DNA of 27,455 bases, from IMG/VR virus record IMGVR_UViG_3300043640_000111, positions 1-27,455 of that record. One strand, written 5' to 3'. Position 1 is the first letter of the stretch; the number at the start of each line of letters is the position of its first letter. The position numbers were made by a program, and so were the translations under genes. The notes below the pieces were generated by a model. It was not told where the DNA came from and made no database searches. It was given only the letters and a program-made list of their open reading frames with translations. This document shows positions 2,190 to 26,428 of the stretch, piece by piece. The stretch is from a virus.

Positions 2190-2674
2190 CTTAGTTTTTG
2201 TCTGTCTTTCATTGTTACCTTTTCGCTACCGTGCGCACTGCGAATCTGATCCATTGAAAACTTACCACGGCCTTTTGATTTGTAATCTGCTGGCCTGAAA
2301 TACCATAAACATTTTTTTGGCGCCCATCTGAATTTTGCCTCTTTCAGAATGTCTTTATGTGGCTTGGTGTCACCGTGTAGCCATACCCAAGAACCGCATA
2401 TTTCAATATCAAATCCTAAGTGAATGATTTTAGATAGCGCGTTGAATATGTCTTCACCGTAGCTTGATAAGTCGCCAGCTTCATTAACTTGCGCTGTACC
2501 TGATTCAGCTTTTAAAACGTCATAGGCTTGATTGACCATTTTCATCATCTCTAAACCTGCTGGGTTTCTATCAGGGTGATACACGCTGCACGCCTTGCGA
2601 TAGGCTGCCTTAATAGTTTCTGGCGTGTACTCACCAGTGATAGAAAGTATCTGCAAAGCGTCTTTGATGTTCAT
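2180..2674 (-). CDS. DnaJ-domain (J-domain) protein with C-terminal phage/plasmid-type module, 164 aa
   Basis: The start was placed at ATG 2674, which has AGGA six bases upstream; the frame stays open 20 codons further, but that stretch covers the promoter. Residues 1-60 are a J domain, with the helix II-III signature HPD at 33-35 in SVYHPDRNPAG. J domains stimulate the ATPase of Hsp70 (DnaK). No Gly/Phe linker or zinc-finger domain follows, so it is a minimal class III type. Instead residues ~95-164 form an aromatic-rich module (CGSWVWLHGDTKPHKDILK then RWAPKKCLWYFRPADY) that I recall in J-domain proteins of other phages and plasmids. It probably recruits host DnaK to a phage-related target. 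It is the first gene of the accessory cluster, directly under the promoter at 2705-2734. Confidence 0.88.
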   Translation of the reverse strand: MNIKDALQILSITGEYTPETIKAAYRKACSVYHPDRNPAGLEMMKMVNQAYDVLKAESGTAQVNEAGDLSSYGEDIFNALSKIIHLGFDIEICGSWVWLHGDTKPHKDILKEAKFRWAPKKCLWYFRPADYKSKGRGKFSMDQIRSAHGSEKVTMKDRQKLRAA

Positions 2675-3237: not shown

Positions 3238-4575
3238 ATGATTATAAAACCGCAAAGAATCATCCTACCCCACAAGATGATTTTGCGGGAATATCAAACC
3301 CCTGTTTTTGATGCCCTCTTTAAACGCAAGATAAAGCGCATTGTTGACGTTATCCATCGAAGGGCTGGCAAGAGTAAGACTGCGCTCAATATCCTTATCA
3401 GCGCGTCCTTTGAGCGCGTAGGGCTGTACTTTCATTGCTTCCCCCAATTAACCCAAGCAAAAAAAGCAATCTGGCTGGGTATTGATGGTGATGGTATGGC
3501 CTATATTGACCACTACCCAAAAGAACTGGTTAAGCATATAGACAATACAGAAATGCGCGTAACCATGATTAACGGCTCGATCATACAATTAGTGGGTTCT
3601 GATATGTATGATAAATTGCGTGGCTCTAACCCCGTTGGAATTGTCTTTGACGAGTACGCGCATAGCTCCCCTTTCTGCTGGCAATACACGTCACCCATTT
3701 TGCGGGAAAATGGCGGTTGGGCAATGTTCATTTACACCCCGAACGGCCATAACCACGGATATGATTTATACAATAATAACTTAAATAATCCAAAATGGTT
3801 TGTTAGAAAACTAGATATTACCCAGACTCGCAAGCATGACGGCTCTTTGATTATCACTGAGGATGATATACAAGAGGAACGCGATAGCGGTATCAGTGAA
3901 GAAGCAATCCAGCAAGAGTATTATGTATCCTTTGAGGCTGCCGTTATTGGCGCATACTATGCGGAACAATTGCGCATTGCTGAGCGTGAAAATAGAATCC
4001 GTTTGTTCCCCATTGATAAGAAACTGCCTATCTTTACAAGCTGGGATTTGGGGTTCAGGGATTCAACATCAATTTGGTTTGCTCAAATGGTAGGCCGTGA
4101 ACTTCGGCTCATTCACTACTTTGAAGATTCAGGCCGGAAAATGTCGGACTATATCGAGTATTGCAAAGCGTTCATTGCATCAAATGGCGGTAGGCATGGG
4201 CTGCACTTTGCGCCTCATGATATCGCGGTTCATGAATTTACCACGGGAAAAACACGGCTTGAGACTGCGCGAAAGCTGGGCTGGCGTTTCCGTGTGGTAG
4301 GCCAGCATCATGTGCAAGATGGTATTGATGTGGTACGTGAGGACTTAGGCTACACGGTCATTCACTCTGAATATGCAAAACAAGGTCTGGCACTGCTCAA
4401 GATGTACAAGAAAGGATTAGATGGTAAACCAGAACATGGGGTTTCAAGTCACTGCTCGGACTCATTGCGCATACTGTACATGGGATTAAAAGGCCATCAT
4501 TCAGAACCCGTGGACAATGCGCCTAAACAAGTTAAGCGCAACACCTATGCAAGCTCAAATATTATGACGGGCTAG
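3238..4575 (+). CDS. terL: Phage terminase large subunit (packaging ATPase and nuclease)
   Basis: This is the motor that cuts concatemeric DNA and drives it into the procapsid through the portal. Residues 1-190 form the ATPase: Walker A in RRAGKSK (41-47), Walker B in GIVFDEYA with D138-E139, and a coupling motif near IYTPNG. Residues ~240-420 form the RNase H-like nuclease, with acidic positions D270 (SWDLGFRD), D328 (APHDIAVHEF) and D408 (SHCSDSLR). At 445 aa, length and motifs are complete. The gene starts immediately after the preceding stop with no clear ribosome-binding site. Oddly, it lies on the strand opposite all virion genes, far from the TerS-like gene at 23157. Its TAG stop shares the CTAG palindrome with the stop of the convergent VRR-NUC gene. 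Confidence 0.95.
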   Translation: MIIKPQRIILPHKMILREYQTPVFDALFKRKIKRIVDVIHRRAGKSKTALNILISASFERVGLYFHCFPQLTQAKKAIWLGIDGDGMAYIDHYPKELVKHIDNTEMRVTMINGSIIQLVGSDMYDKLRGSNPVGIVFDEYAHSSPFCWQYTSPILRENGGWAMFIYTPNGHNHGYDLYNNNLNNPKWFVRKLDITQTRKHDGSLIITEDDIQEERDSGISEEAIQQEYYVSFEAAVIGAYYAEQLRIAERENRIRLFPIDKKLPIFTSWDLGFRDSTSIWFAQMVGRELRLIHYFEDSGRKMSDYIEYCKAFIASNGGRHGLHFAPHDIAVHEFTTGKTRLETARKLGWRFRVVGQHHVQDGIDVVREDLGYTVIHSEYAKQGLALLKMYKKGLDGKPEHGVSSHCSDSLRILYMGLKGHHSEPVDNAPKQVKRNTYASSNIMTG

Positions 4576-21019: not shown

Positions 21020-21868
21020 TTAAGGGATTATGATAGATTCATCATAGTTGACATCGATAACGCCCACGTTGTCGATACAGACAGCGTTTGCAAAAATCTT
21101 GCCAAGTATTTGCCATGAATCGTATTCAGGAACACGCTCAATTTGAGTATTGAAATACTTACCATACGCTTGCCCCATAGCGGTTTTTTGCCATGCAAAA
21201 GCAGTACGGATATTTCCATTAAGCGGTAAACCACCCTCAACCATCGTTGGGATAATTTTCCACTTCATACCCATAGTGAATACGTTGTTCAATGAACCAG
21301 TAGTGATACTGTGCAAGTTGGTGTAAAAGTTACTTGTGAACTGATCGTCCGCAAATAAGTCCTCTTGCCCTTTAGCCGATATCGCTATATAGCGTTCCTC
21401 TGGCGGTACTGCATTGTCGTCAAAGAATTTAGCTACTGCGCGAATCTTTTGGAAAGTCAAACCAGTACCGCCAGTGGCGATAATATTTGATGTACCGGAC
21501 GCATCTAACGCATTAATTAACAATTGGTCAGAACGTCTACCGATAGCCATAGCGATTGCTTCGGCATCTTCTTTTCGTTCGTCAAAGTTAACCAAGAAAC
21601 GCTCAACATCATCAAGCAACGTAGCAACACGCCAAGGATTCAACGTCACTTCTACAGGTTGAAAGTTCGGGTCTTGGTAGTTTACTTGAGATTGAAATGC
21701 GTATTGTTGCGCAATCAATTCACCCATTTTACGGAACTGTACTTGCGTACCTTCCACGTTCTCACGGGTTCTTGCACATTCTCTTAATAACCAACCTTTC
21801 GATTGGAATGCTTGCTTCACCATCGCATCAAAAATCTTTTGCTGGACGGCTGATAGGCTTAATGACAT
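21020..21868 (-). CDS. Major capsid protein, 282 aa
   Basis: The protein follows the scaffold and precedes the tail-tube genes. It has the layout of short podovirus major capsid proteins of the HK97-fold group: an N-terminal helix (SAVQQKIFDAMVKQAFQ), an E-loop-like region (EGTQVQFRKMGE), a spine helix (DAEAIAMAIGRRSDQLLINAL), a P-domain repeat (FDDNAVPPEERYIAIS) and a C-terminal A-domain-like section. AAGGAG lies six bases before ATG 21868, but the loop of an upstream leader hairpin can pair with this site (see the leader entry). The gene has its own promoter at 21997-22024, consistent with high expression of the main virion protein. Confidence 0.88.
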   Translation of the reverse strand: MSLSLSAVQQKIFDAMVKQAFQSKGWLLRECARTRENVEGTQVQFRKMGELIAQQYAFQSQVNYQDPNFQPVEVTLNPWRVATLLDDVERFLVNFDERKEDAEAIAMAIGRRSDQLLINALDASGTSNIIATGGTGLTFQKIRAVAKFFDDNAVPPEERYIAISAKGQEDLFADDQFTSNFYTNLHSITTGSLNNVFTMGMKWKIIPTMVEGGLPLNGNIRTAFAWQKTAMGQAYGKYFNTQIERVPEYDSWQILGKIFANAVCIDNVGVIDVNYDESIIIP

Positions 21869-21870
21869 AG

Positions 21871-21996
21871 CCCTCTCCTTAGTAAATAGTTAATAAAAAA
21901 ACCGCTCGAATTAACGGGCAATCTGATTATTAGTGTTATCCAAAAGAGGGCACTAATGCGGCATCGTGTCGCGTAGATTGTTGTCCATCTATTTAC
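21871..21996 (-). promoter_or_regulatory. Structured 5' leader of the capsid mRNA
   Basis: Between the promoter at 21997-22024 and the capsid ATG lies a leader of about 120 nt. It contains (a) a hairpin with a 7-bp perfect stem (ATTAGTG/CACTAAT, arms 21951-21957 and 21929-21935) and a 15-base loop including CCCTCT (21945-21950); (b) a terminator-like hairpin at 21895-21917; (c) the Shine-Dalgarno AAGGAGAGGG, of which AGAGGG (21871-21876) is perfectly complementary to the CCCTCT in the loop. Loop-to-SD pairing could mask the ribosome site. The structure is visible; regulatory use is inference. Confidence 0.5.
21895..21917 (-). terminator. Terminator-like hairpin in the capsid leader
   Basis: On the minus strand a 5-bp stem (CCGTT/AGCGG with one G-U) and a 6-base loop are followed by seven T's (21895-21901). 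It lies downstream of the capsid promoter but upstream of its start codon. It could end incoming transcripts from the scaffold genes or attenuate capsid transcription. The stem is short, so efficiency is uncertain. Confidence 0.5.
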
Positions 21997-22024
21997 AGTA
22001 TAGCGCATACCACATAATTGTAAA
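21997..22024 (-). promoter_or_regulatory. Sigma70-type promoter for the major capsid gene
   Basis: On the minus strand TTTACA (22019-22024, 5/6) and TATACT (21997-22002, 5/6) are separated by 16 bases. It lies in the 172-base gap between scaffold and capsid genes, the longest gap within the late operon, and would start transcription about 120 bases before the capsid ATG. Confidence 0.7.
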
Positions 22025-22040: not shown

Positions 22041-22877
22041 TTAACCCCAAACTTTTTGGGCTTTCGCTTCTACCTCGGCACGGAACAATGGGTCTTTGTT
22101 AAAGCGTTCATCGGCTATCATTTCCAGCAATTGCCGTTCTGATAACTGATTGCTTTGCTGGCCACGGGTAGTATCAACGGCAACCTCTGGCGTTGATGTG
22201 GCTGCTCTGCGTAGCTTTTGCAACACCTTAAATGAATCAGCCGTTGTCACCATTGACTTAAATATTTCATACTCATTCTTGTCAAGGCGTTGTCCTGCCC
22301 ATTCGCTGAGTTGCGCAATCTCGGCCTTGGCATTCAAGCCAATTTTCTCAAGCTCGGCTTGTGGGTCTGGCGCATAAAAGTTTTGCGAGTTGACATAATG
22401 ACTTAACGCCTTGGTAACAAAGTCTTGGGATGCGTTGGATTTTTTTGCTAAATCCAAAAACTCCGCAAGCATCGGATCACCTTCCTCAAATTTGAAATCC
22501 GGCATTTCAGGTATCGCTGTATCGTAAGCCTCTGGCGCACCTTTAAAACTGCCAAATTTCTTTTCAAGTTCATTGAAAGACTTTGCAGCATCCGCAACAC
22601 TTTTAAACTTAGGCTGTAGCCATTCGGGTCGTTCACCAGTACCGGGCGTATTGTCATCATAATACCAAGCGGATGGATCAGCCGCTTTAGCTTCTGGCGT
22701 AAGGACTGCGTTTGCGTGTTCCCCACCGTTGGCTCGTTGAAACTCTTGATTAAGGGCGTCAACCGTTTTTCCTTCTGTAGCTGCTGTAGCAGTTGTAGCA
22801 GTAGCTGCTCCAGTTCCTTGTCCTTCACTGGCGGTTGTTGTTGGCGCACTTGCACCCCCTGCGTCTAATATACTCAT
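22041..22877 (-). CDS. Capsid scaffolding protein, 278 aa
   Basis: Recognised by position between portal and capsid and by its composition. The N-terminal ~55 residues are Ala/Thr/Gly-rich and disordered, followed by acidic and helical segments with the recurring scaffold pattern ERPEWLQPKFKSVADAAKS, then ELEKKFG and FKGAPEAYD (around residues 80-125), and a helical C terminus (QLSERQLLEMIADERF) of the kind that contacts the capsid. It guides procapsid assembly and leaves before or during packaging. ATG 22877 overlaps the stop of the preceding gene (ATGA). Confidence 0.85.
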   Translation of the reverse strand: MSILDAGGASAPTTTASEGQGTGAATATTATAATEGKTVDALNQEFQRANGGEHANAVLTPEAKAADPSAWYYDDNTPGTGERPEWLQPKFKSVADAAKSFNELEKKFGSFKGAPEAYDTAIPEMPDFKFEEGDPMLAEFLDLAKKSNASQDFVTKALSHYVNSQNFYAPDPQAELEKIGLNAKAEIAQLSEWAGQRLDKNEYEIFKSMVTTADSFKVLQKLRRAATSTPEVAVDTTRGQQSNQLSERQLLEMIADERFNKDPLFRAEVEAKAQKVWG

Positions 22878-25721: not shown

Positions 25722-26156
25722 TTATAGTATCATTTGAACTGTGCGTATCCCGTTTCTAAATTTGTCTCGTTCAGATAATCTTAGCAACTTCCGATACAAG
25801 CTGTAAGGTGTGATTGCTCTGATACGAATCCCTAGTGCGTACTTAATAAACGACACGCAATTATTTAAGCGTGAATGTCTAATCGAGTTCTTTGTTGATC
25901 TATCAAAGAATGTGATTTTAAGTACCGTGTATCCTTCATTCCTTAGCAACCTTGGCACTGGCTCTGTTACCTTATAAGGGGCGATACCATGTGTTAACCT
26001 TAATCTATGTGGGTCATGGAATATCCAGTTGTATTCATCCTTGGATACCATCAGCACATGACCAAAGCCTTTCTTTAAAAACTTTTGCAGCCAGTAACCT
26101 TCGCCTTGCTTGAACACAAGCCACACGTCATAGGTTACTGAATAGTTAAAATCCAT
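25722..26156 (-). CDS. Permuted papain-like (NlpC/P60- or LRAT-like) protein, 144 aa
   Basis: AGGGG lies about three to four bases before ATG 26156. The sequence has the order expected of circularly permuted NlpC/P60-type thiol enzymes: an early His in KKGFGHVLMVSK (H33) on a predicted strand, a WIFHDPHR segment, then a Cys opening a helix in NNCVSFIKYALGI (C100), like the NC..F motif of LRAT-type proteins. The end, IRAITPYSLYRKLLR, continues the helix-strand layout. I have seen similar short proteins with NCVxxxKxxLGI then TPYxL near podovirus virion genes, always uncharacterised. Possible roles are peptidoglycan peptide or amide cleavage during entry or lysis, or acyl transfer. Catalytic activity is inference. 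Confidence 0.6.
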   Translation of the reverse strand: MDFNYSVTYDVWLVFKQGEGYWLQKFLKKGFGHVLMVSKDEYNWIFHDPHRLRLTHGIAPYKVTEPVPRLLRNEGYTVLKITFFDRSTKNSIRHSRLNNCVSFIKYALGIRIRAITPYSLYRKLLRLSERDKFRNGIRTVQMIL

Positions 26157-26167
26157 TTAACCCCTAT

Positions 26168-26428
26168 TTACTTTTTAGCTTTAGTCTCGCCTAACAATTC
26201 AGGCTTAGGTACTTCATCAAATTCAGGTGTACCCCATTTATGTTCAGGGTCGTTAATGAAAAGGTGATCCGTATCATTTGGGTGAGCGTTGGTATTAACC
26301 AAGCGGATTAACCAGCCTCCGGGTAGAGGGCATCTGTAGCTATGACGGCCACAAGAAACATCAGCCTCAATCTTTTCCCATTCTAAAATGTGAACGCACG
26401 GCTCACCTTGTATTTGTCTTAGGCTCAT
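26168..26428 (-). CDS. Hypothetical protein, 86 aa
   Basis: The start is fixed at ATG 26428 by an ATGA overlap with the endolysin-like gene; an in-frame TTG four codons upstream is unlikely. The protein has a His/Cys-rich first half (EPCVHILEWEKIEADVSCGRHSYRC) that could bind a metal, then PLPGGWLIRLVNT and an acidic/Pro-rich end (EFDEVPKPELLGETKAKK). No family is recognised. Coupled translation with the endolysin-like gene hints at a lysis or entry role, but there is no membrane segment or signal peptide. Confidence 0.65.
   Translation of the reverse strand: MSLRQIQGEPCVHILEWEKIEADVSCGRHSYRCPLPGGWLIRLVNTNAHPNDTDHLFINDPEHKWGTPEFDEVPKPELLGETKAKK

Follow-up and report, generated by a model that had tools for sequence, protein, structure and literature searches.

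Does the gap in front of a major capsid gene hold an RNA structure that controls translation of that gene? The question arises at one locus of an IMG/VR virus record; the whole record, 27,455 bases long, is called the window here. The gap lies on its minus strand, between the capsid assembly gene and the major capsid gene (Table 1), and is referred to below as the leader. A first-pass annotation of this DNA had proposed a separate promoter for the capsid gene, and that a hairpin in the leader can mask the Shine-Dalgarno (SD) sequence of the capsid gene.

The locus and its relatives

The major capsid protein has a sequence match to the solved capsid 9eg4. The label "T7-like" given to the phage fits in part: the portal and scaffold proteins match T7-type Pfam families, but the capsid belongs to Pfam Phage_capsid_2, and no RNA polymerase is annotated in Methylophilales phage MEP301, which has the highest capsid identity among named phages. 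A DNA similarity search against named phages gave no matches. The portal, scaffold, capsid and tail genes are encoded on the minus strand of the window, and a terminase-like gene is found on the plus strand (3238-4575).

Relatives at several distances were sampled: L001-L003 have 83-94% capsid identity to the window, L012-L015 have 59-68% and L004 has 53%, while the capsids of L022 and L023 are 70% and 68% identical to that of L015. A pattern scan for the P1-P2-P1 arrangement described below gave seven matches, three of which (L016, L017 and L020) were dropped as they lie within coding genes of unrelated phages. The sister group around MEP301 comprises at least 563 confirmed capsid relatives from a single viral-contig collection; a capsid search of bacterial genomes found none. 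In L014 a tRNA gene (2528-2600, plus strand; Rfam tRNA, 43 bits) is located approximately 240 bases upstream of the capsid leader.

Table 1. Features of the window around the capsid leader.
Feature	Position	Strand	Basis
Capsid assembly (scaffold-like) gene, upstream of capsid gene	22041..22877	-	PF05396 / PHROG 1052
Sigma70-type promoter of the capsid gene, -35 hexamer TTTACA	22019..22024	-	Sequence; 11/11 leaders
-10 hexamer TATACT, 7 nt before helix P1	21997..22002	-	Sequence; conserved position
P1 5' half GATGG [ACAA] CAATCT	21975..21989	-	Pairs with 21913-21924; covariation, shuffle control
Hairpin P2 ATTAGTG [C] CC-TCTTTT-GG [ATAA] CACTAAT	21929..21957	-	Covariation; recurring internal loop
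Anti-Shine-Dalgarno GCCCTCT, P2 5' side and loop	21945..21951	-	Complementary to 21870-21876
P1 3' half AGATTG [C] CCGTT	21913..21924	-	Covariation in 11 leaders
A/T-rich hairpin candidate GTTAAT...ATTAAC, with T7 tract	21889..21915	-	Low confidence
Extended Shine-Dalgarno region AAGGAGAGGGC	21870..21880	-	Sequence; close relatives
Major capsid gene	21020..21868	-	PF19821 Phage_capsid_2 / PHROG 3437

A promoter kept in position

Promoter-like strings are no commoner in this part of the window than in shuffled sequence (24 seen, 29.6 expected), nor are terminator-like strings (14 seen, 16.0 expected), and conservation therefore became the question; it is their conservation in relatives that sets the promoter, the hairpin and the complementarity to the SD apart from chance occurrences. 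The promoter in the window matches the consensus at 10/12 positions with a 16-nt spacer between its hexamers. All 11 leaders of the window's clade have a sigma70-type promoter scoring 8-10 of 12, placed 6-8 nt 5' of helix P1, with a mean score of 9.5 as compared to 6.6 in shuffles. The hexamers lie where the first-pass annotation had placed them, and its proposal of a separate capsid promoter is supported. From the promoter-P1 spacing, transcription probably starts almost exactly at P1. The lack of an annotated RNA polymerase in MEP301 is consistent with a host-type promoter. At many loci of the sister form considered below, inspection by eye finds a terminator-like hairpin and T run after the scaffold gene, upstream of the promoter.

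The first-pass annotation had also suggested that the leader might attenuate transcription. In this rival reading the hairpin before the T7 tract ends most transcripts 5' of the capsid gene, as an attenuator or as the source of a terminated small RNA. A weak hairpin followed by T7 is indeed present (21917-21902); it has 5 pairs, of which 3 are G-C, and in L002 and L003 the run of T is interrupted although the remaining leader is kept. Together with the unexceptional frequency of terminator-like strings, this makes termination extremely improbable, and both the T7-tract attenuator and the free small RNA were rejected. The 11-codon ATG...TAG frame (21988-21953), proposed to couple translation to folding, likewise exists as described, has no SD or ribosome-binding site of its own, and stops at differing places in L001-L003, for which reason a uORF-coupled leader was rejected too. 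Attenuation and coupling are both unsupported because neither the tract nor the frame is conserved. The arms of the A/T-rich hairpin candidate are present in L001-L003. CsrA-type ANGGA sites were dropped as candidates, being missing from most of the sister form and from P2 of the window.

Two helices with one internal loop

At the start of the transcript, a long-range stem (P1) encloses a hairpin (P2) in the 11 leaders of the window's clade. P2 is the hairpin of the first-pass annotation, and its perfect 7-bp stem (ATTAGTG, 21957-21951, with CACTAAT, 21935-21929) is retained with compensatory changes in relatives; what had been missed is the larger fold, and an internal loop that recurs in many phages. 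This loop is asymmetric, a single C opposite AYAC or AYAA (hereafter C / AYAC), and is shared by P1 and P2. It is flanked by GG/CC on one side and, in 10/11 leaders, by a C-G pair on the other, and in distant members of the window's clade a third copy sits in a later hairpin, P4.

P1 and P2 were aligned by hand, since MAFFT places the helices wrongly in the distant leaders. In the hand alignment the first three inner pairs are formed in 11/11 leaders, both in P1 and in the outer stem of P2, with two to four different pair types at each; in L004, for example, AATTGG[ATAA]CGTTA pairs with TAACG[C]CCAATT. Searching eight leaders, in which a near-identical four were represented by one, for the motif plus its helices gave summed helix lengths of 49 for the hairpin form and 46 for the long-range form, whereas 1,000 dinucleotide shuffles gave means of 2.6 and 0.6 and maxima of 16 and 14, respectively. 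The closest relatives, L001-L003, keep the leader from the -10 box through the start codon. The alignment of relatives that had been suggested as a check on the hairpin yields both conservation and covariation. As predicted helices P1 and P2 are supported by compensatory changes in 11 leaders, and these changes, the set position and the coding strand indicate that the capsid leader is a cis-acting, conserved structured mRNA leader.

Pairing with the Shine-Dalgarno region

The proposed masking of the SD starts from a complementarity that is present in the window, between CCCTCT (21950-21945) and AGAGGG (21876-21871), and that extends to the 7 bp GCCCTCT/AGAGGGC. The minimum-energy structure predicted for the window leader, and for most relatives, pairs the SD region with the 5' strand of the last motif hairpin and thereby excludes that hairpin. 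We examined this pairing in a swap test on eight leaders of the window's clade, using a 16-nt segment at the last motif hairpin: the mean energy was -11.5 kcal/mol with a leader's own SD and -8.45 kcal/mol with swapped ones, and 6 of 40,320 permutations were equally good, a count that is not a true probability since the leaders are related. The signal peaks at the last motif hairpin, is weaker in overlapping neighbor segments and is absent from other segments of the leader; L012, with weak anti-SD pairing, is the exception. These results are supportive of co-evolution of the loop/SD pairing across the eight leaders, that is, in the window's clade only. The same test was negative in the sister form, where the pairing is undetectable.

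In Vibrio phage MG592548 (L234, approximately 1058-1155), which has a distant member of the capsid genes, the leader ends in GAGGGC, with GCCCTC some 80 bases upstream and a predicted pairing between them; SD masking of the GCCCTC type may have arisen in another lineage.

We read the gap before the capsid gene as a cis-acting structured leader that controls capsid translation by an SD-masking switch, and put the probability of this reading at roughly 0.6. Transcription would proceed from the capsid gene's own sigma70-type promoter, starting at about P1. In one state, P1 and the enclosed P2 would form and the SD would be freer; in the other, the 5' side of P2, GCCCTCT, would pair with AGAGGGC and mask the SD; the two states would be mutually exclusive. 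While sequence comparison establishes the fold, the place of the promoter and the co-evolution of the SD pairing, we infer the direction of the switch and the existence of a factor: the masked state would be the default, opening when the motif-bearing P1/P2 fold forms. Given that the energy models favor the masked state, something must stabilize the P1/P2 fold, and this would take place via the repeated internal loops, probably through a factor that recognizes them, turning capsid synthesis on. In the window, forcing P2 to form costs 7.8 kcal/mol and raises the predicted accessibility of the SD from 0.13 to 0.60; in several relatives the forced hairpin leaves the SD unfreed in the energy model.

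The same energies would also suit a timer set by the order of folding, with no ligand, in which P1/P2, being upstream of the SD, can form first and leave it open until the masked form, lower by 7.8 kcal/mol in the window, takes over, so that translation is limited in time for each mRNA. Such a timer leaves the repetition and strict conservation of one internal loop unexplained, and we regard it as unlikely.

A sister form linked to the same capsid family

Leaders of the MEP301 type have a series of four hairpins (H1-H4), of which the first and the last contain the internal loop. Searching with a covariance model of this sister form gave 64 strong matches (E ≤ 3e-6), every one immediately 5' of the capsid gene, and a single match in the MEP301 genome. 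Paired letters occupy 95.3% of the pair cells (78.8% when shuffled), both sides have changed in 21/24 pairs, and the covariation score is 0.391, compared with 0.116 after shuffling and no more than 0.057 after sliding; these figures are not probabilities, given related sequences and an alignment made to fit the structure. RNAalifold on a separate, unfitted alignment of the sister form found compensatory changes in 13/19 predicted pairs. The window leader gives no match to the sister-form model, and the two forms are therefore joined by their position and the internal loop alone.

At A7 columns 10/45, the inner pair of H1 beside the internal loop, the letters are U-A, C-G or non-standard, the last in 22 sequences and by eye mostly C/A. 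They seem to track the letters of the bulge (CCYA with C/A), a hint that this pair belongs to a non-canonical core.

The fold might act without switching, as a stabilizer that shields an abundant mRNA at its 5' end or as an enhancer that aids ribosome loading. The sister form, in which the fold is strongly conserved with no detectable SD switch, would be accounted for in this way; the co-evolved SD pairing in the window's clade would not, nor would internal-loop letters that are stricter than a plain stem requires, and we judge a purely stabilizing or enhancing role to be quite unlikely.

A pattern scan with one stretch of the sister-form RNA gave at least 120 exact matches in one viral-contig collection. 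In all 114 of these that were assessable, having enough downstream sequence, the next gene encodes a capsid of the same family, a strict genetic linkage between leader and capsid protein. Motif hairpins, present in 59/72 loci, have a density of 3.99 per kb within 220 bases 5' of capsid genes and of 0.07 per kb elsewhere. The cultured Pelagibacter phage OQ414636 has two motif hairpins 5' of its capsid gene; in MW202572 one is seen by eye at this position, where the strict scan was negative. The motif was not found in HTVC010P, four other pelagiphages or the Vibrio phages inspected.

Several observations on these records are of separate interest. The locus tags of OQ414635 and OQ414636 seem to be swapped, the "Hodr" record carrying Baldr tags and vice versa. 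In MW202572 a 90-base "hypothetical protein" annotated immediately ahead of the capsid gene (26091-26180, minus strand) overlaps the leader region and may be no gene. HTVC010P, Skadi-4, HTVC035P, HTVC203P and Lederberg (L102, L230-L233) have a different conserved leader, AGACTTTAAATNCAAGANNTGCC, which lacks C / AYAC and lies about 100 bases before the capsid gene; this may be another RNA of the capsid-leader kind.

Translational riboswitches, too, are laid out as a compact conserved fold plus an alternative pairing that masks the SD, and the internal loop might bind a metabolite whose level reflects the condition of the infected cell. Against a small-molecule ligand, there were no matches to Rfam riboswitches, and the loop occurs two to three times per leader and, in the genomes examined, only before capsid genes, with no metabolic gene; a riboswitch is accordingly a highly improbable reading.

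For the preferred reading, an SD-masking switch opened by a factor, our guess is that the factor would be a phage protein linked to the capsid, on the grounds of the strict linkage to one capsid family, the near-absence of the motif elsewhere in the genomes searched, and the repetition of the site in each leader. More specifically, it is possible, though doubtful, that the capsid or scaffolding protein itself binds the C / AYAC loops and sets the rate of capsid translation. Were this so, an RNA operator would govern the shell protein of a dsDNA phage, and capsid supply would be tied to head assembly.

Comparison with known systems

A search of Rfam 15 under gathering and E-value thresholds returned no relevant family for the leader, and no capsid leader of this kind is described in the literature searched or in two surveys of structured RNAs, sources whose coverage is incomplete. 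Among the described families found, none is a conserved leader RNA dedicated to a capsid gene. The short folded RNA is common and recurs in many aquatic phages; its last hairpin, apparently suited to covering or exposing the ribosome-binding site, suggests an undescribed route to shell-protein dosage in tailed phages. Since it occurs in the cultured phage MEP301, its function is testable.

Ribosomal-protein leaders and translational riboswitches combine conserved structure at the 5' end with a competing pairing by which the SD is masked. The capsid leader shares both elements and differs in having no Rfam family, a repeated internal loop and a strict association with one capsid family. In MS2-type ssRNA phages, the coat protein represses the replicase gene via an operator hairpin; here too a hairpin with unpaired letters is found near a ribosome-binding site in a phage structural operon. 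However, MS2 has an RNA genome and its replicase gene is the one repressed, whereas in the present dsDNA phages the leader precedes the capsid gene itself, and protein binding is putative. Tailed phages must balance the supply of capsid and scaffold, and the leader would offer a concrete RNA operator on which questions of timing and dose can be asked. The scaffolding protein of P22 reportedly exerts post-transcriptional feedback, for which the papers searched gave no confirmation. This, too, would be control of head-protein synthesis in a tailed phage, but in P22 it is the scaffold gene that is controlled, while the leader described here precedes the capsid gene and any feedback is putative.

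Structured cis-regulatory RNAs in aquatic phages have precedents in the glutamine riboswitch and the manA/wcaG RNAs of marine phages (PMC9004378, PMC2864571). Their downstream genes are tmRNA or host-metabolism genes and they have Rfam entries, unlike the capsid leader on both counts. In phage Mu, Com binds mom mRNA and activates its translation (PMC6483171). The target of Com is a DNA modification gene and that of the leader a capsid gene, and the two are likened by proposed mode of action alone: in Mu a phage protein activates a phage mRNA, and the opening of the SD proposed here would match.
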